A stretch of DNA of 64,000 bases from Leadbettera azotonutricia ZAS-9. Its GTDB lineage: Bacteria > Spirochaetota > Spirochaetia > Treponematales > Breznakiellaceae. A program made the position numbers and the translations under genes. This document shows, one piece after another, positions 1,295-27,192 of the stretch. Where the stretch lies: assembly GCF_000214355.1 (NCBI RefSeq), contig NC_015577.1, positions 1,287,121 to 1,351,120 on the forward strand, given 5' to 3'. Positions within the stretch are counted from its first letter, which is position 1. Each line of letters begins with the position of its first letter. The notes under the pieces were generated by a model that saw only the letters and a list, made by a program, of their open reading frames with translations, did not search any database and was not told the origin of the DNA.

Positions 1295-2839
1295 ATGGAA
1301 AAGATATTGCCGTTTTTACTGTTGCTGGGAGCAGCGTTCTCGGGATGCAGCAATGGCATCTACGTTCCCCCGGAAGAGCCGCCGTCAGGGGCCGAAGTTT
1401 CCGGGCGGTTTCGGGAACACCTGAATGACGATTTCACTGTCGATTTAGGATTTGAAAGCCATCTCCCCATTGTTGTGGTTGATACCCAGGGGGAATCCTT
1501 TGAACTGACCCGGTATTGGAATAGTGAAAGTGGGTATGCCGTGCCAATTCCCGGGGCGAAACTTTACATGGCAAGCGTTATCTCCGTCTATGACGCCGGC
1601 GCCGCGCTTAATAAGATCACCGATACCCCCGCATACCAAACCGATGCCCATATAAGGCTTTCTCTTGAACCTTTGGCGCCTTTTGACCCGGTGGAAAAAG
1701 TGGACTACCAGATAAATCTGCGGGATCAGGGCGGAAACGACAAAAAACTTGCCCTGCTGGGCATGAAAAGCCGCAGCGAATGGATACTGCGAGGCAACTC
1801 AAGCGACGGATCACTGATCCGGAATTATCTTGCCAGGGAGGTTTCTAAACAGGTAATGCATAATACTCCGGATTTGCGTTTTTGTGAGCTTTTAATTAAG
1901 TCTACCGGAGGCTACGAATACAGGGGAGTGTATACCTTATGCGAGACTGTGGGCGAGGGGGAAGGTCTGCTTGATTTGGACGGCAATTTGCCGCCCTTCA
2001 GGAAAAAGCTTGAGAGAGTTTTCGCCGGGAGTCAAGGATCAGTAAGTTATATCACCTGGCGCAGCCCCTACAATTCAGAATCGATATTTTTAAACACCTA
2101 CGCCATGAATGAAGGTTTTGCCGATAACGGATTTGAATTGATATATCCGTTCAAAGAGCTTTCCAGAAACGATCTTGAAAAAATAGAAGAAAATATCAGT
2201 CAAGCCGAGCAGGTTTTGTATTCCGACATTCCTGTTGTTTATGTGAATTACCCGAAATATATTGATGTGGATTTTTTTGTTGATTACTTTATAATAAATG
2301 AATATTTTATGAACTACCGTATCGGCTATTCAGGTGTGTATATTTATAAAAGTCCTTACGGGAAAATCCGAGTCGGCGTTCTGAACGATAACCTTTCCAG
2401 TTTTGATAATGACAAAAATCTGTCCGCTGATCCTGGCAGGACAATGTTTGCCGAAACTCCTTGGTTTATCCGGTTCATCAGAGATAAGGCGTTTCTGCAA
2501 AAATTGGAAAGCCGCTATTCCCTGCTCAAGAGGGGTGTTTTGTCCGACGTGAATATGATTTCACTGGTTGACGGTATCGCCGAATTTCTTGAACCTGCGG
2601 CGGAACGGGATTGGTATCGCTGGGGCGAAAATTATTCGTCGGGCAGTTTCAGCGCCGAACTTATCAAAATCAAATATATGATGGTCCGGCATAACGCGGT
2701 TATCGGCGACGCCATTCGGCGCATGGGCTGGGAAGAAAACCTGATGGATAGTTCCTACAGTAATCTCCGTTCGTCGTTGTATTTTTTTGGTTTTGTGGCC
2801 TTGTTTGTACTGTGCGTCCGCATCGGAAGGTATCATTAA
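1295..2839 (+). CDS. CotH-family lipoprotein with C-terminal membrane anchor
   Basis: Resembles the CotH (spore-coat H protein kinase-like) family: a strand with W-I-L-R-G-N followed by a helix SLIRNYLAREVSKQV, then a hairpin with EYRGVYTLCET. The N-terminus is a lipoprotein signal with lipobox FSGC. Where active CotH kinases carry a W-D-F-(N/D) metal-binding motif this protein reads L-N-D-N (N364-N366), so it may be non-catalytic. Unusually it ends in a hydrophobic helix (about residues 490-510, SSLYFFGFVALFVLC) followed by a basic tail, giving a periplasmic domain tethered at the C-terminus, the same topology as BcsB of cellulose synthase. It directly precedes the synthase gene with a 15-base gap containing a GGGGGGAG ribosome site. 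Role as a BcsB substitute is inference. Confidence 0.75.
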   Translation: MEKILPFLLLLGAAFSGCSNGIYVPPEEPPSGAEVSGRFREHLNDDFTVDLGFESHLPIVVVDTQGESFELTRYWNSESGYAVPIPGAKLYMASVISVYDAGAALNKITDTPAYQTDAHIRLSLEPLAPFDPVEKVDYQINLRDQGGNDKKLALLGMKSRSEWILRGNSSDGSLIRNYLAREVSKQVMHNTPDLRFCELLIKSTGGYEYRGVYTLCETVGEGEGLLDLDGNLPPFRKKLERVFAGSQGSVSYITWRSPYNSESIFLNTYAMNEGFADNGFELIYPFKELSRNDLEKIEENISQAEQVLYSDIPVVYVNYPKYIDVDFFVDYFIINEYFMNYRIGYSGVYIYKSPYGKIRVGVLNDNLSSFDNDKNLSADPGRTMFAETPWFIRFIRDKAFLQKLESRYSLLKRGVLSDVNMISLVDGIAEFLEPAAERDWYRWGENYSSGSFSAELIKIKYMMVRHNAVIGDAIRRMGWEENLMDSSYSNLRSSLYFFGFVALFVLCVRIGRYH

Positions 2840-2854: not shown

Positions 2855-5314
2855 ATGGTTAAGATTGGCGCCTATATTCTATCCAGGTTTGATGTGCTTC
2901 TTAAGTCGGTAAACAAAAGCAGGTCTTCTCTAAAAAACCTGGTGTTTGTCGCGACTATTATCTCCACAGCTGTTTACCTTATATGGCGGATGTTTTTTAC
3001 CCTTCCCTGGCAATACGGAGCCGCGTCTATTATCGCCGGCCTCCTTATGCTCGTATCTGAAATTTTGTCTACCCTGCAGGCATTGGACAAATTCAGCAGT
3101 GTAAAAAAAGGTTTTGAACCTCCGCTTCCCACAATTCCTGATGAATGGTTCTGCGATGTGGACATATTCATTGCGACCCATAATGAATCGGCGGAGATCC
3201 TTTTCAAGACTGTCAACGGCTGTACTCATATGGAGTATCCCGATAAAAACAAGGTTCACGTTTACCTCTGTGACGATGGCAATCGGTCTGAAATAGCCGC
3301 CCTCGCCAAAGAATTGGGAATCGGTTATTTCGGCCTCGCAAGGAATAAGCTGCTCAAAGCAGGCAACCTGAATAACGCTATGCGTCAAACCCATGCGCCC
3401 CTCTGCGTTACCTTCGACGCCGACATGATCCCTACCCGGTATATGCTCACAAAAACTGTCCCGTATTTTTATCTGCCCTTTATGAAGCAGCTTCCTGACG
3501 ACAGATGGATACTGCGCGAACTGGGCGAGATTGATCCCGATTACCGGATCGGTTTTATCCAGACGCCCCAGAGTTTTTATAACCCTGATCTGTTTCAGTA
3601 CAATCTCTATTCTGAAGGCCGCATCCCCAATGAGCAGGATTATTTCTTTAGGGAAATTAATGTCATTAGGAACGCTTCCAATGCGCCTATCTACGCTGGT
3701 TCGAATACGGTCATTTCTCGTATCGCTTTGGAGCAGGTTGGTTACATAGCCACAGGTACCATTACCGAAGACTTTGCCACGGGGCTCAAGATACAGCGCA
3801 AAGGCTGGATCACTTATGGTACCTCCACGCCGCTGGCTCACGGCCTCGCTCCCGATGATATCGAAAGTCTCGTCAAACAGCGGGAACGCTGGGGACGGGG
3901 GTGTATCCAGAGTTTGCAGAACATGAATATCGTCGGCATGAAAGACCTGCCCTTCCTGTCCAAGATAAGTTATATAAACTGTTATTTTTACTGGTGGTCC
4001 TTTTTGGCACGGTTCATATTTATAGCTGCCCCCATTTTGTTCGCGGTTTTTCATTTACGGATTCTGGTTTGTTCGGTACAGCAGTTTTTCATTTTTTGGC
4101 TGCCCTATTTTATCCTTTCCAGTATCACGTCAAAACTAACTGCCGGGGCAACCCGCAACCAGCACTGGAACGGTGTTATTGATACCATCATGTTCCCATA
4201 CCTGATGGTGCCTATCGTTAAGGAGGCCCTGGGGTTTAAGCTGGAGAAATTTGCCGTAACCAGAAAAGACAAGGCAACCGGCGAACAAAAATCTACGTTC
4301 TATTGGGCGCTGCCTCATTTGATGCTGCTGATATCATGCTTGGCCGCGCTCGGTATCTGCGTCAAGCTGACCCTTCAGTCGGCGACAATGTACAACATTG
4401 TCATGATGTACTGGCTTGTCATCAACAGCAAGAACCTGGTTCTGGCGATCTTTTTCATGATGGGGAGGAAAAATACCCGCAGTACAGAGCGTTTCTATGT
4501 TACTCTGCCCATAACAATTCACGGCGAATTCGGCGATATCCACGCCATGACAACAGATATTTCCGAGGAGGGGCTCGCCTTCACTATAGACAGGCCGGAA
4601 TTTATTTCCCCCGATACTGATTTGAGCCTGATTCTGGAAGCTCCCCCCTATACGGCTAAAATGGTAGTCCGGGTACTCCATATAGATAACAGAAACAACA
4701 ATGCCTGGAAATACTGCGTCCGCATCCTCACCCTTGACCGATATAATATCCGGCAGTATTTTCAGATTATTTATGATCGCCACCATTCCCTGCCGGATAA
4801 AATCGCCGAAAACTGGAGCCTCTATGACGATTATCAAATACAGCTTAACAAGCGATCTTCACTCCAGATTAACGCTCAAAGGAAACTGCCTCGTGTCGAG
4901 TTGAGTGCCATCGCCGCCCGTTCCGACGGGAGTGTGTGTATGGTGACAAGTTTTAATTACTATTACTTAAGCTTCAGGTTTTTCTCTCCCTGGCCGGAAG
5001 GCGATGACGAGGATGAGGTGAGGGCGCGGAGGAACAGGCCCGCCTGTGAGATTTTTGACGAAGCATATATGGAATTTGAGGGATATAATAATCTTCCGTT
5101 TCATATTGCCATAGAAAACAAGCTGCCTGGCGGGGATATACTGTTTTCAGTCATTAATTGGAGGACCCTTCTCAACAACAAGGATTACCCGTCCCTGATA
5201 GACAAGTGGGTGGCAGGAGTCAAAATGGAAGCCCTTATCCGGGGTGAGCGTAGTCTTCCCGAACTTCCGCCTGCCGACGAATATGCGGAGATATTGGAAG
5301 AGGCTTTTGTATGA
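2855..5314 (+). CDS. bcsA: Cellulose synthase-like GT2 with PilZ domain (BcsA type)
   Basis: Processive family-2 glycosyltransferase that would polymerise a UDP-sugar and pass the chain through its own membrane channel. All signature residues are visible: DD at 140-141, DxD at 188-190, TED ending at D306, and QRERW at 342-346. Membrane helices flank the GT domain (two near residues 28-75, several between 370 and 535). The C-terminal part carries a PilZ c-di-GMP-binding domain with RSTER (542-546) and DISEEG (568-573), so the enzyme should be switched on by c-di-GMP. About 150 extra residues follow the PilZ domain. Family knowledge: this GT2-plus-PilZ layout is that of BcsA. The exact product (cellulose or another beta-glucan) cannot be told from sequence. 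No bcsB, bcsC or bcsZ homologue is adjacent. Confidence 0.9.
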   Translation: MVKIGAYILSRFDVLLKSVNKSRSSLKNLVFVATIISTAVYLIWRMFFTLPWQYGAASIIAGLLMLVSEILSTLQALDKFSSVKKGFEPPLPTIPDEWFCDVDIFIATHNESAEILFKTVNGCTHMEYPDKNKVHVYLCDDGNRSEIAALAKELGIGYFGLARNKLLKAGNLNNAMRQTHAPLCVTFDADMIPTRYMLTKTVPYFYLPFMKQLPDDRWILRELGEIDPDYRIGFIQTPQSFYNPDLFQYNLYSEGRIPNEQDYFFREINVIRNASNAPIYAGSNTVISRIALEQVGYIATGTITEDFATGLKIQRKGWITYGTSTPLAHGLAPDDIESLVKQRERWGRGCIQSLQNMNIVGMKDLPFLSKISYINCYFYWWSFLARFIFIAAPILFAVFHLRILVCSVQQFFIFWLPYFILSSITSKLTAGATRNQHWNGVIDTIMFPYLMVPIVKEALGFKLEKFAVTRKDKATGEQKSTFYWALPHLMLLISCLAALGICVKLTLQSATMYNIVMMYWLVINSKNLVLAIFFMMGRKNTRSTERFYVTLPITIHGEFGDIHAMTTDISEEGLAFTIDRPEFISPDTDLSLILEAPPYTAKMVVRVLHIDNRNNNAWKYCVRILTLDRYNIRQYFQIIYDRHHSLPDKIAENWSLYDDYQIQLNKRSSLQINAQRKLPRVELSAIAARSDGSVCMVTSFNYYYLSFRFFSPWPEGDDEDEVRARRNRPACEIFDEAYMEFEGYNNLPFHIAIENKLPGGDILFSVINWRTLLNNKDYPSLIDKWVAGVKMEALIRGERSLPELPPADEYAEILEEAFV

Positions 5315-5537: not shown

Positions 5538-6980
5538 TTGCTATTTTCCAGCCTACTGTTTTTATTTTATTTTCTTCCCATTACACTGGCAGTAAACTAT
5601 TTTTTGTCCTTTAACCGGCTTTTGCAAAATATATGGCTGTTAGCTATGAGCCTTTTTTTCTACGCCTGGGGCGAGCCGCTCTATGTATTGCTGATGATTT
5701 TTTCGATAATGGTGAACTGGGCTTTTGGTCTCGTCGTTGATAAAGTGAAGGATAATAAAAAGCAGGTCAGGATTACTGTAATCACGACCTGCGTCGTCAA
5801 CCTTGCGATCCTGTTTGTTTTTAAATACCTTGGCTTTGTGGTGAGTAATATCAATATGGTCGCAGGCCGCAATCTGATAAATTTTACCAGTATGGCCCTG
5901 CCTCTGGGTATTTCGTTTTATACTTTTCAGTCCATGTCCTATGTCATTGATATCAGCCGCAATGACGCCAAGGTGGAAAAGAACCCTTTTTACGTAGGCC
6001 TTTATGTCGCGTTTTTTCCTCAGCTCGTCGCCGGACCCATCGTCCGCTATACGGATGTCGCCGATCAGATCCTTAACCGCCGTTTTAACGGGGCTATTTT
6101 TTTTGAAGGATGCTGCCAGTTTATTTCAGGCATGGGGAAGAAAGTGCTTATCTCCAACGCTATGGCCATGATCGCGGATAATATTTTCAACCTTTCCGCT
6201 ATGGGCCACCATGTTTACAATGTCCCTGTAACTCTCGCCTGGCTGGGTCTCGTCGCTTATACCCTGCAGATCTTTTTTGATTTTTCTGGTTATTCCGAAA
6301 TGGCCATAGGTTTGGGCAGGATGTTTGGTTTTGAATTTTTGATGAACTTTAATTACCCCTATATCGCCAAATCAATTGTTGATTTCTGGCGCCGCTGGCA
6401 TATTTCTCTTTCCACGTGGTTCAAAGAATATGTATATATCCCTCTTGGCGGTTCGCGGATGGCTAATAATGATTTGATGGTCCGCAACACCTTCGTGGTG
6501 TGGCTTTTGACCGGCGTTTGGCACGGCGCCGACTGGACCTATATTCTTTGGGGTCTGTGGCATTTCGTGTTCATTATTTTTGAACGCCTCATCAAGTGGG
6601 ACAACTTGAAGATCCCCAATTTCCTGAGGCATGTTTATACCCTGCTGGTGGTAATGATAGGCTGGCTTTTCTTTCGGGCTATTGATTTCTATCAGTTCGC
6701 GCAGTATTTCTTGAACCTGGTGGGGATGAATAACAATGGGTTTTACAGCGACACTGCCTTCATGCTTCTGCGTGAATATTGGGTCTTTTTTCTTTTTGCA
6801 ATTATATCATCAACGCCGGTTATCAAGAACTTTGGCCGTTTAATGAGACTGGAGGTGATGGGTGTTTGGAATTATTTGTATACTTTTTTTATGCCCATTG
6901 GTTATATAACGGTGTTTATTATTAGTATAACCTTCCTGGCCAAGGGGAATTACAACCCCTTTATTTACTTTAATTTTTAG
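5538..6980 (+). CDS. MBOAT family O-acyltransferase (AlgI/WssH-like)
   Basis: Polytopic membrane protein of 480 residues, the usual length for AlgI/DltB-type MBOAT proteins, expected to move acetyl groups from the cytoplasm across the inner membrane for polysaccharide O-acetylation. The family hallmark LTGVWHGADWTYILWG is present with the invariant histidine at H329; the conserved LPLGISFYTFQSMSYVID and FPQLVAGPIVRY segments also match. The start is a TTG at 5538 placed 7 bases after AGGGG; no in-frame ATG gives the conserved N-terminal SSLLFLFYFLP. It sits between the small membrane protein and the DHHW acetyltransferase, the same pairing found in alginate and acetylated-cellulose (wss) operons. 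Confidence 0.93.
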   Translation: MLFSSLLFLFYFLPITLAVNYFLSFNRLLQNIWLLAMSLFFYAWGEPLYVLLMIFSIMVNWAFGLVVDKVKDNKKQVRITVITTCVVNLAILFVFKYLGFVVSNINMVAGRNLINFTSMALPLGISFYTFQSMSYVIDISRNDAKVEKNPFYVGLYVAFFPQLVAGPIVRYTDVADQILNRRFNGAIFFEGCCQFISGMGKKVLISNAMAMIADNIFNLSAMGHHVYNVPVTLAWLGLVAYTLQIFFDFSGYSEMAIGLGRMFGFEFLMNFNYPYIAKSIVDFWRRWHISLSTWFKEYVYIPLGGSRMANNDLMVRNTFVVWLLTGVWHGADWTYILWGLWHFVFIIFERLIKWDNLKIPNFLRHVYTLLVVMIGWLFFRAIDFYQFAQYFLNLVGMNNNGFYSDTAFMLLREYWVFFLFAIISSTPVIKNFGRLMRLEVMGVWNYLYTFFMPIGYITVFIISITFLAKGNYNPFIYFNF

Positions 6981-6990
6981 GTATTATGAA

Positions 6991-8307
6991 ATGATAGAAA
7001 TTGACAGCAAGGCAAAAGAAGCAAAACAGATTCTTCTCTATGAGATGGCCCGTCGGCAGACAGGTATTCTGCTTGTTGTTATGATGAGCATATTCAGCCT
7101 GGTAAACGGGGTATGGCAATTCGTCCCTACGCTCTGGACAGGCATTGTATGGTCCCTGCAAAACGCAACAGGCCCGACCGAATTGAAAGGATTTTTATCC
7201 GCCGTAGAAAGCAACCTTGGCGGCGATCTTTTGGGTAAAAACCAGTTTATTGAATTTTATGCATTCATGGAAAAGCTTCAGGGCAAGGAAGAATCGGACA
7301 ATTTCTGGGCGGTCAAGAATAAAGCCGGAGATATCATGTATTCCAATTTTTATCCCGATAATGTGGACAGCCTTGGTGAATGTGTCCGCCGGATTTGGCG
7401 CTTGAAACAAACCGTGGCCCAAACCGGCACCAAAGTATTTTTCGTCATGCCCCCAACCCTGTACATCCGGGGAAAAGAAGACTTCTCCCCCGGCCTCCCT
7501 TACGGCGACTATAACTACCGGGAGGACACATTCCTGTACTGGCTCGATCAATTCGGCATAGACAATCTCGATCTGCGGGAGAGTCTTAAAGATAACAACA
7601 TTGCGCCGGAAGACTATTTTTTCCATACCGATCATCATTGGCGCCTAGAAACCTCCTTTGCCGCATTTGGAGATATTGTTGCGTGGCTGGATGAAACTTT
7701 CGGCGTAGACCTCGATCCGGATCGCTTTTATACTGATATATCGAACTACTATCAACGAACCTATGAAAACGCTTCCTTGGGTTCCTTTGGCAGGAAGACG
7801 GGTATTATTTTTTCCGGTTTGGATGATTTCACCGTGCTATGGCCCAAATTCGACGACCAGACGGATTTTACCTATTATCCCCGTTTTCTCCTGCCCTATT
7901 CCCAGCCCATAAGCGGCCCATTTACGGAATCCCTGTTGTATCCGCGCCTTATTTCCACTGAAAACCCGTATATAAACGATTTTTACGGTGTGTACCAAAG
8001 CGGTATAAAGAGCCATGAAAAAATCATCAACAATAAAAACCCCGATCTCCCCAAAATGCTGCTTATCCGCGATTCTTTCAGTCTTCCTCTGGGCGTTTTC
8101 ATGGCGCCTTTGTTCAGTCAGATAGACTGTATTTGGCCTGCCAACAGCGATAATTTCTTTTTTGACATCGACGCTTACTTGCAAGAGAATCATTTCGATT
8201 TTATAATGATCGAAATGTACCAGGAAAATCTGATAACGAAAAATTTTTACTATAACCCAAATTCCCTGCCGAACGAGCCGTTTTCGGGAGGTATGGAGCA
8301 AGAATGA
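6991..8307 (+). CDS. AlgJ/AlgX-like DHHW-motif SGNH O-acetyltransferase
   Basis: Periplasmic acetyltransferase of the AlgJ/AlgX/WssI group, which takes acetyl from the MBOAT partner and places it on the polymer. An N-terminal membrane helix (about residues 22-44) is followed by the SGNH-like domain. The DHHW motif is D214-H215-H216-W217 in the context FFHTDHHW, and the nucleophile block is D361-S362-F363 in LLIRDSFS. The C-terminal DFIMIEMYQENL strand is also typical. The start codon follows the MBOAT stop by 10 bases with only a weak AGG ribosome site, so translation is probably coupled. The stop overlaps the next ATG in ATGA. Confidence 0.9.
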   Translation: MIEIDSKAKEAKQILLYEMARRQTGILLVVMMSIFSLVNGVWQFVPTLWTGIVWSLQNATGPTELKGFLSAVESNLGGDLLGKNQFIEFYAFMEKLQGKEESDNFWAVKNKAGDIMYSNFYPDNVDSLGECVRRIWRLKQTVAQTGTKVFFVMPPTLYIRGKEDFSPGLPYGDYNYREDTFLYWLDQFGIDNLDLRESLKDNNIAPEDYFFHTDHHWRLETSFAAFGDIVAWLDETFGVDLDPDRFYTDISNYYQRTYENASLGSFGRKTGIIFSGLDDFTVLWPKFDDQTDFTYYPRFLLPYSQPISGPFTESLLYPRLISTENPYINDFYGVYQSGIKSHEKIINNKNPDLPKMLLIRDSFSLPLGVFMAPLFSQIDCIWPANSDNFFFDIDAYLQENHFDFIMIEMYQENLITKNFYYNPNSLPNEPFSGGMEQE

Positions 8308-9650
8308 AAAGATTCAGCGTAATTCCGCTTTTGTTGGTTTTTATTGTATTTTCGGTTTCCGCCCAGGAAGAGGAGGAGGCGCCGGCGCACTCCTCTGTTT
8401 CCGGCGTGATGGATTATATTTCCATAAACAGCTATGGTTATGCGGCCTTTGACCTTGTTAAAATCATCAAACCATCCGATGGCGATCTTAACGTGTCTTC
8501 CGGCATTGATTCCGAGAACGACAATCCCAATGTCGGTCTTACGTTCACAATGAATACCCCGGATAACCGGCTGGGGGCTGTTTTGTCCATCGTGAGCTCC
8601 GGCGAATCTTTCGCCTCGGTAGATTCCGCTGAATTGTGGGTAATGCCGTTCAGCTGGGTACGGCTTGATTTCGGCAAATTTTATAACGATGATCTTCGCG
8701 GGTCCATGATAGCCGGTGGTTTCAATCTTGGTACAGGTTCAGGGTATTTCAACGAGGATTCGGTATTCCAAAGGTTCGACGGCAGTTCGGGAACCAACGT
8801 TCTGTTAAAGTTGACCCCAGCCATTGAGGGGCTTTCGTTTTATGCCTTTTTTAACCCTCTTAATGCGGCGGGCCCCGGAAGCCTCGGTATCGAAGATGTT
8901 ACTGATTCAAAAACCCTATTGCTAAGCGGTCAATACGCAGCTGCTTATGATTTTTGGAATGTCGGCCTGTTCAGGCTTCAATACATTGGAGGCGAGAAGG
9001 AGCGGATTGATTCCCGGGTGTATTCATTGTTTAACCGTCTTGGCGCCGTCAACTCTCTGAACCCTTCAGTTTCGTATCCAATGTCTGTACAGGCGGCGGC
9101 GGCAATTTCGCTGATTCAAAATCTATCTATGGAATTTGGCGTAACGTACCCCCTGTATATATCAGATGAAAGTGGCAGCCTGCAAAGACCGCTAGTCGTT
9201 TCGGCGGGAGGTAAATATACCCTGGATTCTTTTAGTTTCAGCGGAGTGTTTACCGGGAGTTTCCTGGGTTCTTCCCAGGAAAACGATTATACCCAAAAAA
9301 TAAAAAACGCCTTCGGCAACGTGTACGGAATTTCTCTGGGCGCCGCTTACAATGCAGGACTTTTTTCTCTGGGTATGAACTTTAAGGCCCAGTATAAAGA
9401 TAAAGACAAGAGCAATATTTATAAAAAAGACGATCCCCAGTCAGATAACGCCGCCTTTTCCAGTGGAGTGTCGTTATGGATATCAAAAACTTTTTTAAGC
9501 GGTTATGTACAGCTTGGAGTTAATCTTACGTTCCCTGCTCTCAACGCTTTTAGCACGGGTTACAGCGTTTATGATCCGTATTCCTGGGCAAAGCCTTCGC
9601 GCTCTCCCTGGATAATCACGGTTCCCATTAGTTTCAGTTATTATATCTAA
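8304..9650 (+). CDS. Outer-membrane beta-barrel (porin-like) protein
   Basis: Begins with a signal peptide (MKRFSVIPLLLVFIVFSVSAQ, cleavage after SA-Q) followed by an acidic EEEE stretch. The rest alternates short amphipathic strands with Gly/Ser/Asp-rich turns, for example FYAFFNPLN and YGISLGAAYNAG, and ends PISFSYYI with an aromatic-hydrophobic terminus, as expected of a barrel. No specific porin family is recognised. The ATGA overlap with the acetyltransferase places it firmly in the operon. Likely role: export channel or matrix receptor in the outer membrane (inference). Confidence 0.7.
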   Translation: MKRFSVIPLLLVFIVFSVSAQEEEEAPAHSSVSGVMDYISINSYGYAAFDLVKIIKPSDGDLNVSSGIDSENDNPNVGLTFTMNTPDNRLGAVLSIVSSGESFASVDSAELWVMPFSWVRLDFGKFYNDDLRGSMIAGGFNLGTGSGYFNEDSVFQRFDGSSGTNVLLKLTPAIEGLSFYAFFNPLNAAGPGSLGIEDVTDSKTLLLSGQYAAAYDFWNVGLFRLQYIGGEKERIDSRVYSLFNRLGAVNSLNPSVSYPMSVQAAAAISLIQNLSMEFGVTYPLYISDESGSLQRPLVVSAGGKYTLDSFSFSGVFTGSFLGSSQENDYTQKIKNAFGNVYGISLGAAYNAGLFSLGMNFKAQYKDKDKSNIYKKDDPQSDNAAFSSGVSLWISKTFLSGYVQLGVNLTFPALNAFSTGYSVYDPYSWAKPSRSPWIITVPISFSYYI

Positions 9651-9667: not shown

Positions 9668-11173
9668 ATGCTGCAAAAACTGAAAGAAGATATCTGGATT
9701 ATTCTTGCATCCCTTTTTGTGTTCAGCGCGCTCATGGTTTTTTTTACGGTTGTTCATCCTATTATCCCTTATGACAATGATGACTGGGGTCTGTTGTGCA
9801 ATTTCAGACATGCTTTCCCCGATGCCTCGACATCAAGTCCCTCAAGAATTTTCCAGGAAATTTTTATGCCTTTTATAGGGCTTATATCGGCTTTTGTAGT
9901 CAATATTTTTGTAAAAGACTATTTGTTTTCCTTTGCGGTAACATTGGCCATTGTTCTGGCTGTGATCTCGACAGTGCTTTTTAACGTAGTTTACCGCCTC
10001 TTTTGTTCTCTTACGAATAAAAAGGGGCTCTCCATTCTAATCTGTCTTCTCATGTCGTTGTTTTACTTTGGATTTTTTAAAACCAGATATGACAGCACTT
10101 ATATGCTTTATAGTATCAATTATACCTGCGCGTTTTATTATATAATTCCTAATTTACTGAATTCGATTTTGGTTTGCCTATTAATGAAGTATGAATGTCA
10201 GGGTACAAAAATTTCTCCTGATGGACTGGGATATGTAAAATTCGGCATTATAGTTGCCGCTGCCTATTTCGCAATCTTTTCCATGTTGTTCTCCATGGCA
10301 ATTTTGGCTGTTTACTGCGGGCTTAATTTAATTTTATCCATTGTTGTATATAAAAAGCAATTCGCCAAAAAAATCCTTTTTCAAATTGCTATTATAGTTG
10401 GATTTCTTGTTTATTGCTATTTTGAAATTACAAGCCAGCGGGCGGCAACTGATACTATCGGTACTTTTGAATTGAATGAAAATACAGGTTTCTTGGAGCG
10501 GGTTGTTATTGCTTTTTATACCTCTTTGGGCCTTCTGGAGCAGATAAACAAGGCTTTTTTGATTTTTGCGATGGTCATAATATTTGTTGCGCTGATAATT
10601 TTTTCAGTAAATATAAAAAAAGACAGCTCCAATAAAATCATCAAACCTGCCGCTATGTGCATAATTCTCTGTCCGGCTATTTTTTTGGCCTATATGCTTA
10701 TAAGCGCTATGGCCGGAGCTCAATTTTATCCAAGTTACACACAGGTAATGTACGGGGCATTTTTTTACTTTTTTATGGCCGCCGGTCTTTGTTTGGCTTA
10801 TATTCTGGAAAAATTTCCCAGACTGACAATTCTTGTACCTGTTGTCATACTTATTTTTACCAATGAGGCTGCCAATCCCTATCTACGCTTTCAGGATCAA
10901 ATGAGCTATCACTGGAATAATATTCAATTGTCCACAAAGAAAAAAATGGAACTTACCAACCATTGGATAGAACAGATGAAAGAAGCCGATAGCCAGGGGA
11001 TTACCGAGATTACATTACAGGTTCCGTATTATCCTGACCATGAAGATGATATGCCGACCGGTTCCAATTATTGGCCTCTTGGTTTTACAAATTCATTATT
11101 CCTGCATCATGTTACATTTTATTATATAAATGTTAAACTTGACTATGTTGAAGGCATGCTGCCCGGAGAATAA
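9668..11173 (+). CDS. Polytopic membrane protein, possible GT-C glycosyltransferase
   Basis: 501 residues with about eleven hydrophobic helices. After the first helix a loop carries PYDNDDWGLL, and a second loop reads FRHAF...RIFQEIFMP. An acidic pair at this place followed by a loop approaching the second helix resembles GT-C-fold enzymes such as GtrII-like or DUF6056 proteins, which use lipid-linked sugars on the outer face of the membrane. A soluble C-terminal tail of about 90 residues follows the last helix. AGGGAG lies upstream of the ATG. Function is a guess from topology and the acidic motif; it could also be a polymer-handling permease. Confidence 0.5.
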   Translation: MLQKLKEDIWIILASLFVFSALMVFFTVVHPIIPYDNDDWGLLCNFRHAFPDASTSSPSRIFQEIFMPFIGLISAFVVNIFVKDYLFSFAVTLAIVLAVISTVLFNVVYRLFCSLTNKKGLSILICLLMSLFYFGFFKTRYDSTYMLYSINYTCAFYYIIPNLLNSILVCLLMKYECQGTKISPDGLGYVKFGIIVAAAYFAIFSMLFSMAILAVYCGLNLILSIVVYKKQFAKKILFQIAIIVGFLVYCYFEITSQRAATDTIGTFELNENTGFLERVVIAFYTSLGLLEQINKAFLIFAMVIIFVALIIFSVNIKKDSSNKIIKPAAMCIILCPAIFLAYMLISAMAGAQFYPSYTQVMYGAFFYFFMAAGLCLAYILEKFPRLTILVPVVILIFTNEAANPYLRFQDQMSYHWNNIQLSTKKKMELTNHWIEQMKEADSQGITEITLQVPYYPDHEDDMPTGSNYWPLGFTNSLFLHHVTFYYINVKLDYVEGMLPGE

Positions 11174-11188
11174 TCATGAGGGGGAAAT

Positions 11189-12136
11189 ATGATAATAGAA
11201 AAAACAACTAAAATAGGTATGGCGTTCTTTATGCTCCTGATAACTCTGTTAATGGACTGTTCATGTATTAAGCATGTCGAGTCATTCCCCGAAAACGAAG
11301 GCACTGGCGCTTCAGAAGATTACCAACTTATTTGGGAGGATAACTTCGACGGGTCGAGCATTGATACCAGCAATTGGATAGTGGTGCGGTGGGGCGCAGA
11401 TACTGTTCCTGCAGGGGAGCTGGAAATTTATCAGCCCTCCAATGTAACAATGGAAGAAGAACCTGTTTCCGGGAATTCCTGCATGGTCTTGACTGCAAAA
11501 ATTGATACCAATAAAAGCGGAAAGGGGCAGATCACCTCCGGACGGGTTGACTCCTACGGAAAAAGGCAGTTTCAATACGGAAAGATAGAGGCAAGCATTA
11601 AACTGCCCAAAACAGCGAACGGTTTATGGCCTGCTTTCTGGATGCTCGGTACAGATGAAATGGAAATTGGCTGGCCCATGTGCGGCGAAATAGATATTAT
11701 GGAAATGGGAAGTTCCTATGCTTATAAAAATAATACCCAGGAAACCCTAAATTTTGGCACGATACATTATGGCCCTAGAGAAGAGAACTGGGAGCATCCC
11801 ATGATATACCAATGGTACAATAATGAGTACAGCCTTCAGGATGGTTCCTTCCACCTCTATACGCTAATATGGGATGAAAACAGGATTAATATGTTTCTGG
11901 ATATGGACAGATTTCCGGACCGGGCGCCGTATTTTTCGCAGGCCATAAATTTTGTTGACAAAGAAGGCTACAATTTGGCTGATTTTTTCAGGAAACCGTT
12001 TCGCATAATATTTAATCTTGCTGTTGGCGGAGAGTATCCTGATATTTATGAAATTGATGGTATTAAAGCTTTGAATGCGACGAATAATTTCGAAGCTAAA
12101 ATGTATATCGACTTTGTCCGGGTATTGCAGAAATGA
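11189..12136 (+). CDS. GH16 family beta-glucanase lipoprotein
   Basis: Glycoside hydrolase family 16 (laminarinase/lichenase group), which cuts beta-1,3 or beta-1,3-1,4 glucans with retention. The catalytic motif is E167-I-D169-I-M-E172, with nucleophile E167 and acid/base E172, preceded by the conserved GLWPAFWMLG. The C-terminal strand KMYIDFVRVLQ is also family-typical. The N-terminus is a lipoprotein-like signal ending near MDCSC, so it should face the periplasm or surface. Being inside the operon it probably edits or releases the polymer, the task BcsZ (GH8) has in cellulose operons, and it hints that the polymer may contain beta-1,3 linkages. GAGGGGG precedes the ATG; the stop overlaps the next ATG. 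Confidence 0.92.
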   Translation: MIIEKTTKIGMAFFMLLITLLMDCSCIKHVESFPENEGTGASEDYQLIWEDNFDGSSIDTSNWIVVRWGADTVPAGELEIYQPSNVTMEEEPVSGNSCMVLTAKIDTNKSGKGQITSGRVDSYGKRQFQYGKIEASIKLPKTANGLWPAFWMLGTDEMEIGWPMCGEIDIMEMGSSYAYKNNTQETLNFGTIHYGPREENWEHPMIYQWYNNEYSLQDGSFHLYTLIWDENRINMFLDMDRFPDRAPYFSQAINFVDKEGYNLADFFRKPFRIIFNLAVGGEYPDIYEIDGIKALNATNNFEAKMYIDFVRVLQK

Positions 12137-14439
12137 ATACTGTAATTGAAAACGAAAACAAAGGCCCCGGATGGATAGACTTTGCCAAAGTATTCTCTGT
12201 TTGGTTTTTAATTACGGGCAGTTTTGCCATATCGCAGAAGTATTTCCTTTTTGTCACTGTATTTGTCGTTCCGGTTTTTTTCTTTCTTTTCGGTTTTAGT
12301 GAAACAGATGGAAAGTCAATAAAGCAAACGATTATAGAAGGTCTTAAATTTTTTTTATTGCCTTATGTATTATTATATCTGACGAATTATATAATAAATA
12401 TCATTGTATATTTTTTAAGCCGTGCAACAAACCCTGCCGTAAGTCCGGATAGTTTTGATATTTTTATTAAACCCCTTATTGGGATGCTGTTGGCGAGCAC
12501 TGTAAAATCACCCTTTTCAACGTTTGCTGTTCATTCCCTTTGGTTTTTGCCGGCCGTGTTTATTGTAAGGGTTTTTCATGCAATAATATACAAATTTATA
12601 AAATTAAAAATTTATCTGTACTTATTGTTTATTCTTGTCTTCTATGGTATTACTTCCTTGTCGTATTATTTATTCAATATACAGGGACAGCGAATTGCTT
12701 TTTCCATTGACTGCGCCTGCGCAGCCATGCCGTTTTTCACCGCTGGGTATATAATAAGGAAGTATGGAATTTTAATTCCTTTTATTAGGCATGATTTGCA
12801 GGGAAAATCTTTTAATTTTCTTATTTCGATAGTTTGTTTCGGTTTTATTGTCATTTTTCTGCAATTTATGGGCGAATTCAATTTCGGAGACTTTATTTTT
12901 GGAAGCAGCATCCCTCTTTATTATTTAGCCGGATTTATGGGAATAGCGGCAGTAGTTTCGTTTTCTTTAACTTGCAGCGGAGATTTTGGAATTTCGTATT
13001 TTCTTTCGCAGGGGCTCCTGATAGCTGCTGCTTTTTATATAAAGGTTATCGGGTTACTCAATACCGTTGTAGGACAGGATTATGAATTATTCTTGATGTC
13101 AAAATTTATATTGTCATTTCTAATACTGCTTTACTCTTCCATGGCGGTTTTATTTTGGAAATATTTGAAAGGGGAGAGGGAACTAATACTGTATTTAAAA
13201 ATTCTAATACGAAATAAAATTTTTTATAACGCAAAAATGGTTGTTTTCGCTGTTTCGAAATTATTCACTGCGTTGTTTGTAATTATCCGCGAAAAATTGG
13301 TAAAACCGTCAGGGGAAGATCACGGCGAAGAGACCCTTCCGGAAGACAGGTTCCTCTGGGTTGATTTCGCACGGGCTGCAGGTTTATTGATCTTTATTCT
13401 TGGGAATATGCAGGGCATTAATTTGTTAAAGAACTTCATTTTTGCCTTTGTATTACCGCTTTACTTTTTTTTAAATGGTTTTCTTGAGAATAACCGGCGT
13501 TCATTTAAGGAAATGGTACTGAACAGCATAAGAACCCTGCTGATCCCGTATGTGATTATATATGGATGCTTAATAGTATATTATTTTGTTTTTAATGTTA
13601 TTGCAAATATTGGAAATCTGAATCCTGATAGAGTTTTGTTTGAATTTATTTTACAGCCTGTTTTAAATATGATCTTGGTTACAAATCAAGTTGGTGGTTT
13701 TTTCGGCTCCCAAGCTATACCACTGTGGTTCCTTATAGCGTTATTCGAAATCCGTATTGTGCACCATGGTTGTATTGCGTTAATTAAACGAAAATTGTCA
13801 TTTTATCCATTAAGTATAATTATCGCCGTTGGGGTTTTTTGGGGGCTGTTTAGGTTAAGCATTGTGTTGATTCGTCTGCCTTTTGCCCTGGACTGCGCCT
13901 TTTTGACGTATCCTTTTTTCGCGCTGGGCTTTATAGTCAGACAAAAGAAAGTAATCGAGCTGATAAATTATTATGATAGCAAAAGCGCTGCATTAAGAAT
14001 TATTTTGCCGATTGTTGGTTTTGCCCTGACAGCTGTTGTCAGTGCAATAAACGGATTAAATGATATTTCCTGGGGTGTTTTTGGATTAAATCTTCCGATG
14101 TTTTATTTTTCCGCATTTTTCGGTATTGCCTCTGTTGTTTTTATTTCATTGTTATACAAAAAAGAAATGCCGGAGATTACCCTTGTTTCGATGGGTTCTT
14201 TGTTAATTATGTCTTATTATTTTCCTGCATTGTATTATACGATTCATGTTTTTGACTCCCTTAATATTTACTTTGGTCTTTTTGCGCAAATATGCATTTC
14301 TGTGTTGATGCTATTTTTATCACCTGCGCTTTTATTGTTCTTTTTCCGGTATTTTCCGGTATTGACAGGTGGTAAAAATAGATTACTTAAGCAAAGGGAA
14401 CAGATAAACAGAATGATGGAGGTACTACCGCGTGAATAA
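12133..14439 (+). CDS. Tandemly duplicated acyltransferase-3-like membrane protein
   Basis: 768 residues made of two homologous halves of about 380. Each half starts with the acyltransferase-3 opening (GWIDFAKVFSVWFLI near residue 10; LWVDFARAAGLLIFI near residue 408), then a phenylalanine-rich second helix (FFFLFGF / LYFFLNGF), an LLPYVLLYL / LIPYVIIYG helix and a HSLWFLPAVF / IPLWFLIALF helix. In the fucose-4-O-acetylase-like branch the first helix ends in Gly-His; here the positions are G29-S30 and G424-N425, so both halves lack the usual histidine. It may be a carrier or scaffold rather than an enzyme. ATGA overlap with the GH16 gene. Domain family likely; function unknown. Confidence 0.75.
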   Translation: MNTVIENENKGPGWIDFAKVFSVWFLITGSFAISQKYFLFVTVFVVPVFFFLFGFSETDGKSIKQTIIEGLKFFLLPYVLLYLTNYIINIIVYFLSRATNPAVSPDSFDIFIKPLIGMLLASTVKSPFSTFAVHSLWFLPAVFIVRVFHAIIYKFIKLKIYLYLLFILVFYGITSLSYYLFNIQGQRIAFSIDCACAAMPFFTAGYIIRKYGILIPFIRHDLQGKSFNFLISIVCFGFIVIFLQFMGEFNFGDFIFGSSIPLYYLAGFMGIAAVVSFSLTCSGDFGISYFLSQGLLIAAAFYIKVIGLLNTVVGQDYELFLMSKFILSFLILLYSSMAVLFWKYLKGERELILYLKILIRNKIFYNAKMVVFAVSKLFTALFVIIREKLVKPSGEDHGEETLPEDRFLWVDFARAAGLLIFILGNMQGINLLKNFIFAFVLPLYFFLNGFLENNRRSFKEMVLNSIRTLLIPYVIIYGCLIVYYFVFNVIANIGNLNPDRVLFEFILQPVLNMILVTNQVGGFFGSQAIPLWFLIALFEIRIVHHGCIALIKRKLSFYPLSIIIAVGVFWGLFRLSIVLIRLPFALDCAFLTYPFFALGFIVRQKKVIELINYYDSKSAALRIILPIVGFALTAVVSAINGLNDISWGVFGLNLPMFYFSAFFGIASVVFISLLYKKEMPEITLVSMGSLLIMSYYFPALYYTIHVFDSLNIYFGLFAQICISVLMLFLSPALLLFFFRYFPVLTGGKNRLLKQREQINRMMEVLPRE

Positions 14440-15172
14440 ATATTTTTGCATAAAACTGTCAATTTTTATAACAATCTTTGTACTATTGGCCGCATGTTGC
14501 AGCATGGCGAAAAATGTTGGCTATAAGTATATCCCCATCCCGGAAAATTCACAAAAAAAGGTCCTTACGAGGCCTATTGTTTGTCTTGGAGACAGTCTTA
14601 CGGAAGGATATGTCTCTTCAATGGTTGGTATTGTGGATCGGGAACATTCATATCCGGCATTTTTACAGGAAAAGGTCAATGTTCAGGTTGTTAATTCCGG
14701 GATAAGCGGCAATACAACCAAGGAAACGTTGGATAGGATTGAAAAAGATGTTCTTGCGTACAACCCCGATATGGTTATTGTGTTTCTTGGAACAAACGAC
14801 TTTTTTTTAAGGGATCTTCCTTTGGAAGAAACTCAGGAAAACTTACAGAAGATCCTGGATAAAATCAATGACGGCGACAGGCTGATATTCCTTGTAAAAT
14901 TTTATTCAAACCAAATACTGGAAAGGTTTATGAGCTGGAAGGAATGGTCTGTAAGGAGGTGGCAAAGCACAATTAATAAATATGATAGTATGTTTGAAGA
15001 ATTGGCGCATAAAAATAACGCAGTATTGATTAGCGGAGTCTGGGAGGGAATTGATATTGAGGCGGATATGCCCGATTCGGTTCATCCAGATACGCATGGT
15101 TATTGGCTTATTGAAGAAAATATCTTTTTAGCTGTAAAATCATACATCTCTGAAGAAAATCTGATAGAATAG
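14432..15172 (+). CDS. SGNH/GDSL esterase lipoprotein (TesA-like)
   Basis: Single-domain SGNH hydrolase with all blocks: block I CLGDSLTEG with nucleophile S55, block II NSGISGNTT, block III FLGTNDFF, and block V DSVHPDTHGY with D215 and H218. The N-terminus is a lipoprotein signal (ILLAACCS region). The GTG start at 14432 overlaps the previous gene by eight bases and is placed 9 bases after GGAGG. In this operon a polysaccharide deacetylase role, removing acetyl groups placed by the MBOAT/DHHW pair, is the natural guess, as proposed for WssF-like proteins; lysophospholipase or arylesterase activity is possible. Confidence 0.88.
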   Translation: MNKYFCIKLSIFITIFVLLAACCSMAKNVGYKYIPIPENSQKKVLTRPIVCLGDSLTEGYVSSMVGIVDREHSYPAFLQEKVNVQVVNSGISGNTTKETLDRIEKDVLAYNPDMVIVFLGTNDFFLRDLPLEETQENLQKILDKINDGDRLIFLVKFYSNQILERFMSWKEWSVRRWQSTINKYDSMFEELAHKNNAVLISGVWEGIDIEADMPDSVHPDTHGYWLIEENIFLAVKSYISEENLIE

Positions 15173-15181
15173 GAGGATAGA

Positions 15182-15976
15182 ATGAAGTTGTATAAGATTG
15201 TCTTTGCCGGACTCTGCGTTTTAACCTTATTCACTGTAAGCACATGCGAGTTTGAGTATCAGGACGAATCCGTTTTTCCCATTCCTGTTGTTTCAAAAAA
15301 TGACCCTGCAGTCTCGGAAAGTGCAGGTAAATATTCTGATAACGATTCAAGGAAAGATATACACGACTCGTTTAAAAATATGGCGGGTGATTTTCAGTTC
15401 ATTTTATTGGGGGATGATATCATAGCATATTGGGACTGGGACGATATGCCAAACAGTTCCAGTTATTATAATTTTGGAATTTCCGGAGATGATACGGCAA
15501 ATTTAATCTGGCGGCTGAAAGATGGTGAATTATCAGAAAGCATAACGGCCGATTATGTTGTACTGCATATCGGGGTTAATAATGTGAAAAATTGGCAATC
15601 TGCCGCATCAGTCGCGGCGGGAATCGGCGAAATAATCAAATTAATCAATAAAAAATTGCCCTATACGCAAATTTTGCTGTTCTCTGTCCTGCCGTATTAC
15701 GATACAGCATGGGATGACGAAGAAGAATGGGAATGGGATATAGCGTCATTTATGCTGTCAAATATTCAATCCGTGAATAATATTATTTCAAAATACGATG
15801 GGTTCTACAATACCTCTTATATTGATGTGGCTTCGTCTTTCTTTGCAGACGGAGTTTTTTATGATGAATTATTTGAACCTGATGATGGCTACTATTCAAC
15901 GCCGACAGCGGAAGGATACGGTTATTTATATGATGAGATCTTGGCTGTTTTATCGAACAGTGGTGATGATGACTAA
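15182..15976 (+). CDS. SGNH-fold lipoprotein lacking catalytic Ser and His (pseudoesterase)
   Basis: Clear paralogue of the next gene (shared NLIWRLKDGELSES / HVIWRLKNGEFPRD and AAGIGEI segments), but the active site is gone. Block I reads LLGDDIIAY, with D79 where the serine should be; block III reads IGVNN; block V reads DDGYYSTPTAEGYGY, without the D-x-x-H-P motif. The fold core is otherwise intact and the reading frame is open, so this is a conserved inactive homologue rather than a decayed gene. The N-terminus is a lipoprotein-like signal ending VSTC. GGAGG precedes the ATG. Likely role: carbohydrate-binding or regulatory partner of the active paralogue (inference). Confidence 0.8.
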   Translation: MKLYKIVFAGLCVLTLFTVSTCEFEYQDESVFPIPVVSKNDPAVSESAGKYSDNDSRKDIHDSFKNMAGDFQFILLGDDIIAYWDWDDMPNSSSYYNFGISGDDTANLIWRLKDGELSESITADYVVLHIGVNNVKNWQSAASVAAGIGEIIKLINKKLPYTQILLFSVLPYYDTAWDDEEEWEWDIASFMLSNIQSVNNIISKYDGFYNTSYIDVASSFFADGVFYDELFEPDDGYYSTPTAEGYGYLYDEILAVLSNSGDDD

Positions 15977-16835
15977 AACAATCAGGCGCATTACCAGAAG
16001 TATTTTTTTTCCTTCTCTGTTATTGTTCTCCCTGTCATGCGGCAGTACGGTCAAGTATATGGATTTAAAGCCCGACTCTGCTGAGTATATCGCCGATAAA
16101 GACAGTCCTTTTATAGTAACTTGGGAAGGAGATTCTGCCATTACGCCCGAGTCTCGTCTCGACGAAGATGAGAACTGGTGGATGGTTAAACACCATGCTA
16201 TTGTAGACAGTTTTAAAATATACAAAGAGTATGATATAATATTTATTGGCGACAGCATCACGAGCTATTGGGAAAATGATAAGTATTATGACCGGGAATG
16301 GGGCCTTTGGACCTTCGGAAAAAAATACTGGGATCTTCTTAAAAAAGCCGGATACAGGATTAAGGATATGGGGTTTCATGGAGATCAGACTCAACATGTC
16401 ATTTGGCGCCTGAAAAATGGAGAATTCCCAAGGGATATTATATGTAAAACCGTTGTTTTGCTTATCGGAACAAATAACGCCAGTACTGAGAAATCAATTG
16501 CGGCCGGTATAGGAGAAATCGCGTCCATTATCCACGAAACCAGTCCAATGACAAAAATCCTGATATTGTCGATTCTTCCCAGAAAGGATTCAAATCCCTA
16601 TTCAGACCAGGATATAAAAGTACAGGAGGTCAATAAAATTCTAAAGACTTACGATGGATATAACAATATCCAGTTCGGCGATATATACGATGCGTTTCTC
16701 GACCCGGATACTCATGAGATAAACACTGGTCTGTACAATTATGATAATTTTGGCTGGATTCACCCAAACGAAAAGGGGTACGGTATCGAACTTAAAGAGC
16801 TGAGTAGGCTTTTAAATTTGGGGCTTGATCTTTAA
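15966..16835 (+). CDS. SGNH hydrolase lipoprotein (PAF-acetylhydrolase-like)
   Basis: Intact member of the SGNH family closest in layout to PAF-acetylhydrolase-like esterases. Block I is FIGDSITSYW with S97, block II GFHGDQTQ, block III LIGTNNAS, block V WIHPNEKGY with H266. The start is placed at the ATGATG at 15966/15969, overlapping the previous stop by eleven bases, because this gives a lipoprotein signal (RSIFFPSLLLFSLSC); an open frame extends further upstream but has no signal peptide. Expected acetyl-esterase in the periplasm or on the surface, with the preceding inactive paralogue as possible partner. Confidence 0.85.
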   Translation: MMTKTIRRITRSIFFPSLLLFSLSCGSTVKYMDLKPDSAEYIADKDSPFIVTWEGDSAITPESRLDEDENWWMVKHHAIVDSFKIYKEYDIIFIGDSITSYWENDKYYDREWGLWTFGKKYWDLLKKAGYRIKDMGFHGDQTQHVIWRLKNGEFPRDIICKTVVLLIGTNNASTEKSIAAGIGEIASIIHETSPMTKILILSILPRKDSNPYSDQDIKVQEVNKILKTYDGYNNIQFGDIYDAFLDPDTHEINTGLYNYDNFGWIHPNEKGYGIELKELSRLLNLGLDL

Positions 16836-20875: not shown

Positions 20876-20933
20876 GCATGAATAGTTATTTTTATTATTT
20901 CTATCACTTTTTATAGAAATCTTCATAATGATG

Positions 20934-20942
20934 TGATATATT
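20934..20942 (+). promoter_or_regulatory. Possible extended -10 promoter of the InlB-repeat lipoprotein
   Basis: TGATATATT fits an extended -10 element (TGn plus TATATT). A good -35 box is not visible at 16-18 bases upstream. The ribosome site GGGAG at 20952 is close behind, so the leader would be only about 15 bases. Confidence 0.35.
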
Positions 20943-20962
20943 GTTTATCATTGGGAGTAACC

Positions 20963-26800: not shown

Positions 26801-27192
26801 GGGATAAAATTTGGCTGGGCAAGGACCTTAGCCGCGAACGGATTAAGATCTGCCTCCTCTCAAATCAAACATTGCTCACTACGGCCAATCCCTATAATGA
26901 CGGCAGTCCGGTTTCAGGCTATGTTGATATGGCAGGTTCCGGTAATAATGATAATGAAACACACATTGATGCTTTTGAAAATAGCGGTGATTCAGATTTA
27001 ACATCCTGTCCTCAGCTGCTTTCAAGGCAGAAGTCAATGAGGAGGAAGTCTTTGATTGACAGTAACAATAATCGTGTTGATTTTACCTCGATAGATTATC
27101 GGGCTGAAAAAACGAACGATGATTTGTTAAAAATCTACCGTCCCAAAAATATTGCATATGGTATATGGGATACAGTAACTGCCATGGACTAA
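23848..27192 (+). CDS. Lipoprotein with four lamin-tail domains
   Basis: Lipoprotein signal (LGLAVLVSC). An N-terminal module (about residues 30-225) includes MRTLLPAASQFTKY, LSPGTWTIDAEA and VVHIYPNMDTRA and is shared with the next gene. Four lamin-tail (LTD) domains follow, recognisable by the strand pair SHNFVELYNPTDAEINLAGY, SHNFIELYNPGKKDISLAGY, SHSFVELYNTTDSAINLSGY and SRSFIELYNNTDTAIDLG, each with a SFLILG strand and each ending in a basic ARRK/ARRI segment with a DTNxN turn. In bacteria LTD domains are found on secreted nucleases and surface proteins, often next to CotH domains, as here with the following gene. No catalytic domain is present in this protein. Confidence 0.85.
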   Translation: MNKNKLFKFLSLILGLAVLVSCSNFFEPSSRDDGGTYITVDLEGDMRTLLPAASQFTKYTLKAARETQSETINITSMPQRITLSPGTWTIDAEAFVTVNGEQVSAAAGSIVVSDLAAGENRAVSIRLAMPDTQGTGIFDYTVALPAIPFNSAKMILTPLFGSPRTDIEYDLLNQLSGKNFLPSGYYLLRTIMEYNSLKAGKVEVVHIYPNMDTRAVYEFSSGDFIEQKVLIWQMYASSVDSTSTNGAVSHNFVELYNPTDAEINLAGYSLQYGYVGKDAEENPVYPDNYHDDIAWEKLDLSGTIPAHSSFLVLGKLWNADSRLDLGELIPDQAWDIAFENRNFKFCLIKSTAVLMVQNPFDINGDGSGVRAAGYVDMFGGINSNKPKDRDIINGYEGPKSYWDTKNWPEIVSKQKAARRINLVDTNDNTLDFEPIDYRPSGITDKQLPLYQPKNSDYGPWDPVAVPEILILQAYGTGTASDGSVSHNFIELYNPGKKDISLAGYSVQYSTSGASWNKLNLTGIIKAGHSFLILGAKNNTAARLQIAEITADMIWPGQVFDNKKFKIALVRSTDTLLAANPFNTGSGNPVAGYVDMVGAVNKASDGDVIDAFEGSGSNGPELISKNKSARRKTVIDTNSNVDDFEGIDYRKAGIADDALAAFYGPKGSVYGEWDPKYTPPPPVASETPIVILQAYGSGGKIDAAVSHSFVELYNTTDSAINLSGYTLQYSSKGTSWDVLPLTGSIPARTSFLILGKQSNNTGEVLPRVVLADDDFDTADQAWDIDLSNDAFKICLVHGTNPITTVNPYVAVIAGYVDMLGAGTADGFEAAPAAGISKQKTARRKTLTDTNNNAADFEIIEYRAQGGLSAEELLFYQPKNRFYGSWTPVRTAQSAQGLLILQVYGPGNSKDSDGVVTDGAVSRSFIELYNNTDTAIDLGTYSIQYSEGGNNWDKLNLSGIVPAHTSYLILGAAHNTAPRLTLNDNEGDKIWLGKDLSRERIKICLLSNQTLLTTANPYNDGSPVSGYVDMAGSGNNDNETHIDAFENSGDSDLTSCPQLLSRQKSMRRKSLIDSNNNRVDFTSIDYRAEKTNDDLLKIYRPKNIAYGIWDTVTAMD

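Follow-up and report, generated by a model that had tools for sequence, protein, structure and literature searches.

Can a membrane protein of the acyltransferase-3 (AT3) kind that has lost the histidine of its family still transfer acyl groups and, if it cannot, why is it kept in a polysaccharide gene cluster? The question is raised by an open reading frame at 12133..14439 (+ strand, as for all features below) of the window, by which we mean the whole 64,000-nucleotide stretch of Leadbettera azotonutricia ZAS-9 that was analysed. The frame starts with ATG, stays open for 768 codons with no internal stop and encodes a double AT3/TmAT-like membrane protein of 768 aa. A sequence-only reading had taken it for two homologous halves in one chain, opening with WIDFAK and WVDFAR, in which the catalytic histidines are replaced by S30 and N425. 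Parallel loss in both halves was said to argue for a changed function, such as polymer transport or acetyl-carrier binding, and not for decay.

Homology of the halves was borne out by pairwise alignment, which gave 28% identity over about 345 residues (E 2e-33, a single comparison). Both motifs were found at the beginning of TM1, WIDFAK at residues 14-19 of half 1 (residues 1-391 including the linker; 12133..13305) and WVDFAR at residues 409-414 of half 2 (residues 392-768; 13306..14436). The whole protein matches Pfam Acyl_transf_3 (PF01757) at 42.2 bits in two stretches (hmmscan; cut-off 31). Scored separately, half 1 (25.2 bits) and half 2 (26.8 bits) both fall below that cut-off. No match was obtained in NCBIfam or in a sequence search of solved structures.

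Relatives were gathered from the phylum (392 genomes), the family (195), the order around a Symbiothrix genome (198) and the class around a Clostridiales MAG (196), with plasmid records and contig scans added. Identical ORFs, ORFs shorter than 200 aa and loci repeating sequence of the own genome or of a related MAG, G500 (L010, L011, L012, L030 and L031), were left out. At a profile E-value of 1e-10 or less, 74 ORFs were collected, the window protein among them. The A2 contig scan yielded seven loci, and viral contigs three. A contig scan with the whole window protein as query found no relative, and 21 plasmid records gave partial matches, none covering 80%.

S30 (codon AGT, 12220..12222) and N425 (codon AAT, 13405..13407) occupy the DxxRx10H position, at exactly the R-X10-H spacing (K19+11 and R414+11). 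Among the other AT3-like ORFs (73 ORFs, 79 aligned rows), all 69 rows holding a letter at this column have His, while 10 rows are without the stretch that covers it; a profile made without the two halves again gave 69 His, and neither Ser nor Asn occurs there in any of the 69. One row, L066, had seemed to carry Ser when a halves-only profile was used. This was a misalignment; its sequence reads FGHC and it was counted as His. Five columns are conserved at 95% or above, of which each half retains four (G, P, W and G) and has lost only the DxxRx10H His, and 12 of the 18 columns conserved at 80% or above are retained in each half.

Two more family histidines are gone. The His of FHMP in TM2, present in 53 of 71 other rows, is V45 in half 1 and V440 in half 2, and the TM9 His, present in 57 of 69, is Y302 and Y696. 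These two columns weigh less, since both vary in other relatives too. The histidines of the window protein are at positions 134, 149, 220, 397, 544, 545 and 705; there is none in the loops after TM1 (31-43 and 426-438) or at the three family-histidine columns of either half, so the conserved residue has not moved to one of these places. Both halves do have His in a column at the end of TM4, which is not regarded as a replacement because it also occurs in six of 72 other rows having the TM1 His. The R/K-X10-H of TM1 is termed absolutely conserved in AT3 proteins, and its R and H are essential in OafB and others (PMC9833829 and PMC12423673). Lacking that His, the window protein is an AT3 homologue and is not filed as an AT3 acyltransferase. 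The loss of His first described from the letters is confirmed, and is more extensive than described.

Much of the remaining family signature is in place. DxxR/K at the cytosolic end of TM1 is kept (D16/K19 and D411/R414), as are the TM2 Gly, the TM3 Pro, the W and the TM6 Gly in both halves. FxxxxG in TM2 is found as F49-G54 in half 1 and, with a conservative F to Y change, as Y444-G449 in half 2. At one column of RxxR in TM3 the halves have K and R, and His-bearing relatives vary there too. In SxxxY of TM9 the Ser is retained and a nearby column has A or M; relatives have L, M or F at it, so it is not diagnostic in the subfamily. With stand-alone AT3 proteins (PF01757; WecH, IcaC and Oac) the window protein has in common homologous sequence, the TM1 DxxR/K, the TM2 and TM6 Gly and, as modelled for half 2, the TmAT fold; it differs in having two domains per chain, neither with the DxxRx10H His and each below the Pfam cut-off when taken singly. 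In the TmAT fold the acyl-CoA site is made up of conserved residues at the cytosolic face (PMC12423673). By the column survey and the side assignment in that paper, the cytosolic acyl-CoA-site residues known from HGSNAT and OafB are largely kept, whereas those on the outer side are lost. The protein may bind acyl-CoA, the acetyl carrier of the sequence-only reading.

An AlphaFold model of half 2 built from nine sequences had a mean pLDDT of 77.2 and a pTM of 0.80. VIA-align placed the human TmAT HGSNAT first (Z 16.8; 292 residues, rmsd 5.0), followed by GWT1 (Z 11.7), and the next, unrelated fold reached Z 4.0. With Foldseek alone HGSNAT was also the best match, at E 0.25, and no match was obtained at E <= 0.001; the fold claim rests on VIA-align, with half 2 as the only query. 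As modelled, half 2 has the 10-TM TmAT fold. The full-length model was poor, above all in half 1 (pLDDT 60, pTM 0.51), and half 1 would have the TmAT fold by homology to half 2 only. GWT1 is an enzyme though it is without the catalytic His of HGSNAT, an observation that was counted against a pseudoenzyme.

Lys and Arg counts were 20 inside and 3 outside for half 2, and 21 inside (11 of them in the linker) and 5 outside for half 1. These counts favour two halves inserted alike, each with its N-terminus inside, which would give a parallel pseudo-dimer. The linker segment at residues 367-385 (13231..13287) has a hydropathy of 2.09, equal to that of the TM helices, and may be crossing or interfacial; a single crossing would invert half 2. 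Inversion was rejected as unlikely by the K/R counts, a rejection with which the linker as a possible membrane helix is not reconciled. The two topologies left by linker hydropathy and the weak half 1 model were likewise counted against a pseudoenzyme.

The likeness to HGSNAT provides the main rival to a loss of catalysis. In the structural alignment residue 13 of the model is paired with residue 237 of 8tu9, which places N425 on HGSNAT N258 if ungapped, a register taken from end points only. In HGSNAT, Asn replaces the AT3 His and both are important (PMC12423673); N258 holds acetyl-CoA, and catalysis is attributed to the luminal H269 (PMC11357348). N425, and S30 with it, might then hold acyl-CoA as N258 does, and the base would come from another residue or from a partner, so that the protein would still be an acyltransferase. 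Half 2 has the fold and, on this register, the Asn, and could by the same papers be active, which was counted against a pseudoenzyme. HGSNAT, however, also requires H269; the window protein has no His in either post-TM1 loop and has Ser in half 1 where HGSNAT has Asn, and none of the 69 other rows is His-less. HGSNAT-like activity is considered rather unlikely. The window protein further differs from HGSNAT in carrying two TmAT domains per chain.

A relative with the same gene set bears on how the His was lost. The glucan synthase of the window cluster is present in three of the 195 family genomes. In one of them, the MAG G500, the GT2, MBOAT, AlgX and porin genes lie on one contig, and another contig carries the membrane protein, a single-domain AT3 (L015, 4797-5936), an AMP-binding ligase and an SGNH gene; we infer that the two contigs adjoin. 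The G500 AT3 follows the same membrane protein as the window protein does and groups with the two halves (77/91 in the smaller tree). Its TM1 and TM9 His are kept, but the TM2 His is replaced by V, as in both halves. It differs from the window protein in being a single domain, in its AMP-binding ligase neighbour and in having no GH16 gene between the membrane protein and the AT3. In the third genome with the synthase, G414 (completeness 82%), an AT3 of this kind was not found. The idea that His loss accompanies loss of the acyl-CoA ligase was weakened by two ligase homologues (53% and 49%) elsewhere in the own genome.

A phylogenetic tree placed these sequences in a clade of eight rows with 100/99 support, comprising spirochetes, a Clostridiales MAG and two Bacteroidota, several of which we take to be termite-gut organisms. 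The halves are sisters with 88/77 support in this tree and 63/52 in a smaller one, and a clade of half 2 with the G500 protein was not rejected (p-AU 0.258); long branches meet in these trees, and the tool warns of it. Given the weak sister support, and V and Y shared by the halves at the two further lost histidines, one loss before the duplication is as possible as parallel loss. The parallel loss of the sequence-only reading is one of two possible histories.

The gene run around the double AT3 is that of a putative glucan-synthesis cluster. It opens with a CotH-family protein (1295..2839), to which an ORF ahead of the synthase in both G500 and G414 looks similar by inspection, and a cellulose-synthase-like GT2-PilZ synthase (2855..5314; CelA 356 bits, below the cut-off of 699). 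These are followed by an MBOAT O-acyltransferase (5538..6980; TGVWHG motif), an AlgX-like SGNH protein (6991..8307; DHHW and RDSF motifs), a protein that is porin-like by appearance (8304..9650) and a polytopic membrane protein (9668..11173), the last two without a Pfam match; the G500 homologue of the membrane protein directly precedes the AT3. A GH16 glycoside hydrolase (11189..12136; GEIDIME motif) has a stop that overlaps the AT3 start (ATGA at 12133). Downstream, an SGNH/GDSL hydrolase (14432..15172) with GDS, G, ND and DxxH has a GTG start overlapping the AT3 stop by 8 bases. It is followed by an SGNH-like probable pseudo-esterase (15182..15976), in which GDD stands for GDS, so that the Ser is gone, as is the His of the block V DxxH. 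Its paralogue, an SGNH hydrolase with GDS, lies at 15798..16835 and has its true start probably near 15966.

The WHG of the MBOAT, the DHHW and RDSF of the AlgX-like protein, the EIDIME of GH16 and the motifs of the first SGNH protein, all present here, are presumably catalytic. GT2 with PilZ, MBOAT and the AlgX-like protein all matched Pfam over cut-off, which is the gene content of an acetylated-cellulose cluster, and the predicted content points to an acetylated cellulose-like glucan that would be made under c-di-GMP control. The wss/ccs acetylated-cellulose clusters, compared with it in outline, have the GT2 synthase, the MBOAT and the AlgX-like SGNH in common with it; as far as this comparison goes, the window cluster adds the GH16, three SGNH proteins and the His-less double AT3, and its synthase scores too low for the cellulose synthase cut-off.

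The first SGNH gene (14432..15172) suggests a second rival reading of the double AT3, in which the halves would be acyl-CoA-binding delivery domains and the coupled SGNH protein would take the acyl group directly, so that the AT3 His is unneeded. The gene overlap and the SGNH motifs agree with this, as does a homologue near the AT3 in G500, and AT3-SGNH is the commonest AT3 fusion (PMC9558356). The TM1 His is nevertheless still essential in AT3-SGNH proteins (PMC9833829). The SGNH neighbour in G500, moreover, accompanies an AT3 that bears its His, and delivery of this sort is judged distinctly unlikely.

Synthases of the BcsA kind form their own channel. The GT2-PilZ synthase is BcsA-like and by general knowledge extrudes its own product, which leaves the polymer transport of the sequence-only reading not needed on the evidence. 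That the double AT3 is a glucan transporter or channel seems very unlikely: export of PNAG was at one time suggested for the AT3 protein IcaC, but a later proposal makes it a succinyltransferase, a matter still debated (PMC9558356). A gene decaying under relaxed selection, to which the long branches and the sub-threshold Pfam score of each half might point, is hardly credible against 768 open codons, overlaps with both neighbours and the other columns of at least 95% conservation kept in both halves. These last observations support the change of function, as distinct from decay, that had been proposed from the letters, and it is this part of that interpretation which is supported.

The explanation preferred here, to which about an even chance is given, is that of a pseudo-acyltransferase that arose by duplication and fusion and has been retained in the membrane as a non-catalytic component of the glucan machinery. 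A single-domain AT3 gene in the glucan-synthesis cluster would have been duplicated, the two copies fused head to tail and the catalytic histidines lost in both, leaving a protein presumably no longer able to carry out His-dependent acyl transfer. Acetylation of the glucan would fall to the MBOAT-AlgX pair, in which the presumed catalytic motifs are intact. The double AT3 would serve as a scaffold, or as a regulatory component occupied by acyl-CoA, for the PilZ-glucan synthase, for MBOAT-AlgX and for the coupled GH16 and SGNH proteins. What would be retained in the membrane is a non-catalytic parallel pseudo-dimer with its cytosolic-side scaffold, the DxxR/K, TM2 and TM6 positions, of which the acyl-CoA site of HGSNAT and OafB is built (PMC12423673). 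The explanation draws on His in 69 of 69 others at the sole column of at least 95% conservation lost, in both halves; on an R-X10-H absolutely conserved and essential (PMC9833829); on the TmAT fold of half 2, the gene overlaps and the G500 gene set with its His-bearing AT3; and on a second probable pseudoenzyme, the SGNH protein at 15182-15976, in the same gene run.

More tentatively, and with some doubt, the pseudo-acyltransferase may keep acyl-CoA recognition without transfer and sense acyl-CoA or hold the nascent acetylated glucan, coupling synthesis to acyl-CoA supply; together with the SGNH pseudo-esterase, dead acylation enzymes would have been turned into matrix-assembly parts. Symbionts and pathogens alike use AT3 proteins to pass acyl groups through membranes, and what the TM1 His does in them is still debated. 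This natural doubled scaffold without the His is a candidate pseudoenzyme of the TmAT fold and offers a ready-made control for telling acyl-CoA binding and catalysis apart.

The His-less double protein was found in one genome only among those searched in the phylum- and family-wide sets, which was also counted against a pseudoenzyme. In its own genome, the A1 profile matched only the two halves; the Pfam AT3 run over that genome missed even the window protein, 42.2 bits by hmmscan notwithstanding, and is uninformative on other AT3 genes. Narrow searches of open-access papers found no literature on double, tandem or pseudo AT3. The window protein (P0001) is the only one of the 74 ORFs with two full subfamily-profile matches. 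As a check on doubling, four of the matching ORFs that are long were looked at more closely, and uniqueness of the double architecture was ruled out by one of 931 residues from the same order (L107, genome G318), in which Pfam detects two AT3 stretches (175 bits). The special feature of the window protein is doubling without any DxxRx10H His. The G318 ORF likewise has two AT3 domains in one chain, but by inspection it keeps R-X10-H in both; its second domain barely matches the subfamily profile, and it has an extra region at the N-terminus.

The SGNH-like protein encoded at window positions 15182-15976 carries GDD in place of GDS and lacks the block V histidine. It is a second probable pseudoenzyme of the gene run that holds the double acyltransferase-3 (AT3)-like protein. 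The products of 15182-15976 and 15798-16835 are paralogues (29% identity, E = 8e-28), and GDS is present in the latter. The listed start of 15798-16835 falls within the preceding gene; a methionine near 15966, ahead of a lipoprotein-like signal, is more likely to be the true start. Further downstream, 20933-23842 and 23848-27192 encode two large repetitive proteins with several internal repeats apiece, both apparently secreted.

The polytopic membrane protein encoded at 9668-11173 showed no match in Pfam or NCBIfam. Among 195 family genomes, it was matched, apart from its own genome, only in G500, a related MAG. Going by its DNDDW motif, it may be a GT-C type transferase.

Other AT3 arrangements were observed in the compared genomes. 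An ORF of 931 residues in G318 (locus L107, 805-3597) combines an extra N-terminal region with two AT3 domains, which come from different subfamilies and both possess the TM1 motif R-X10-H. Single-domain AT3 genes lie side by side, unfused, in pairs at L051/L054 (G107), L029 and L085 (G723). An AT3 domain is joined to another C-terminal region in L108 (G865, 1051 residues) and in L109 (G238, 834 residues).
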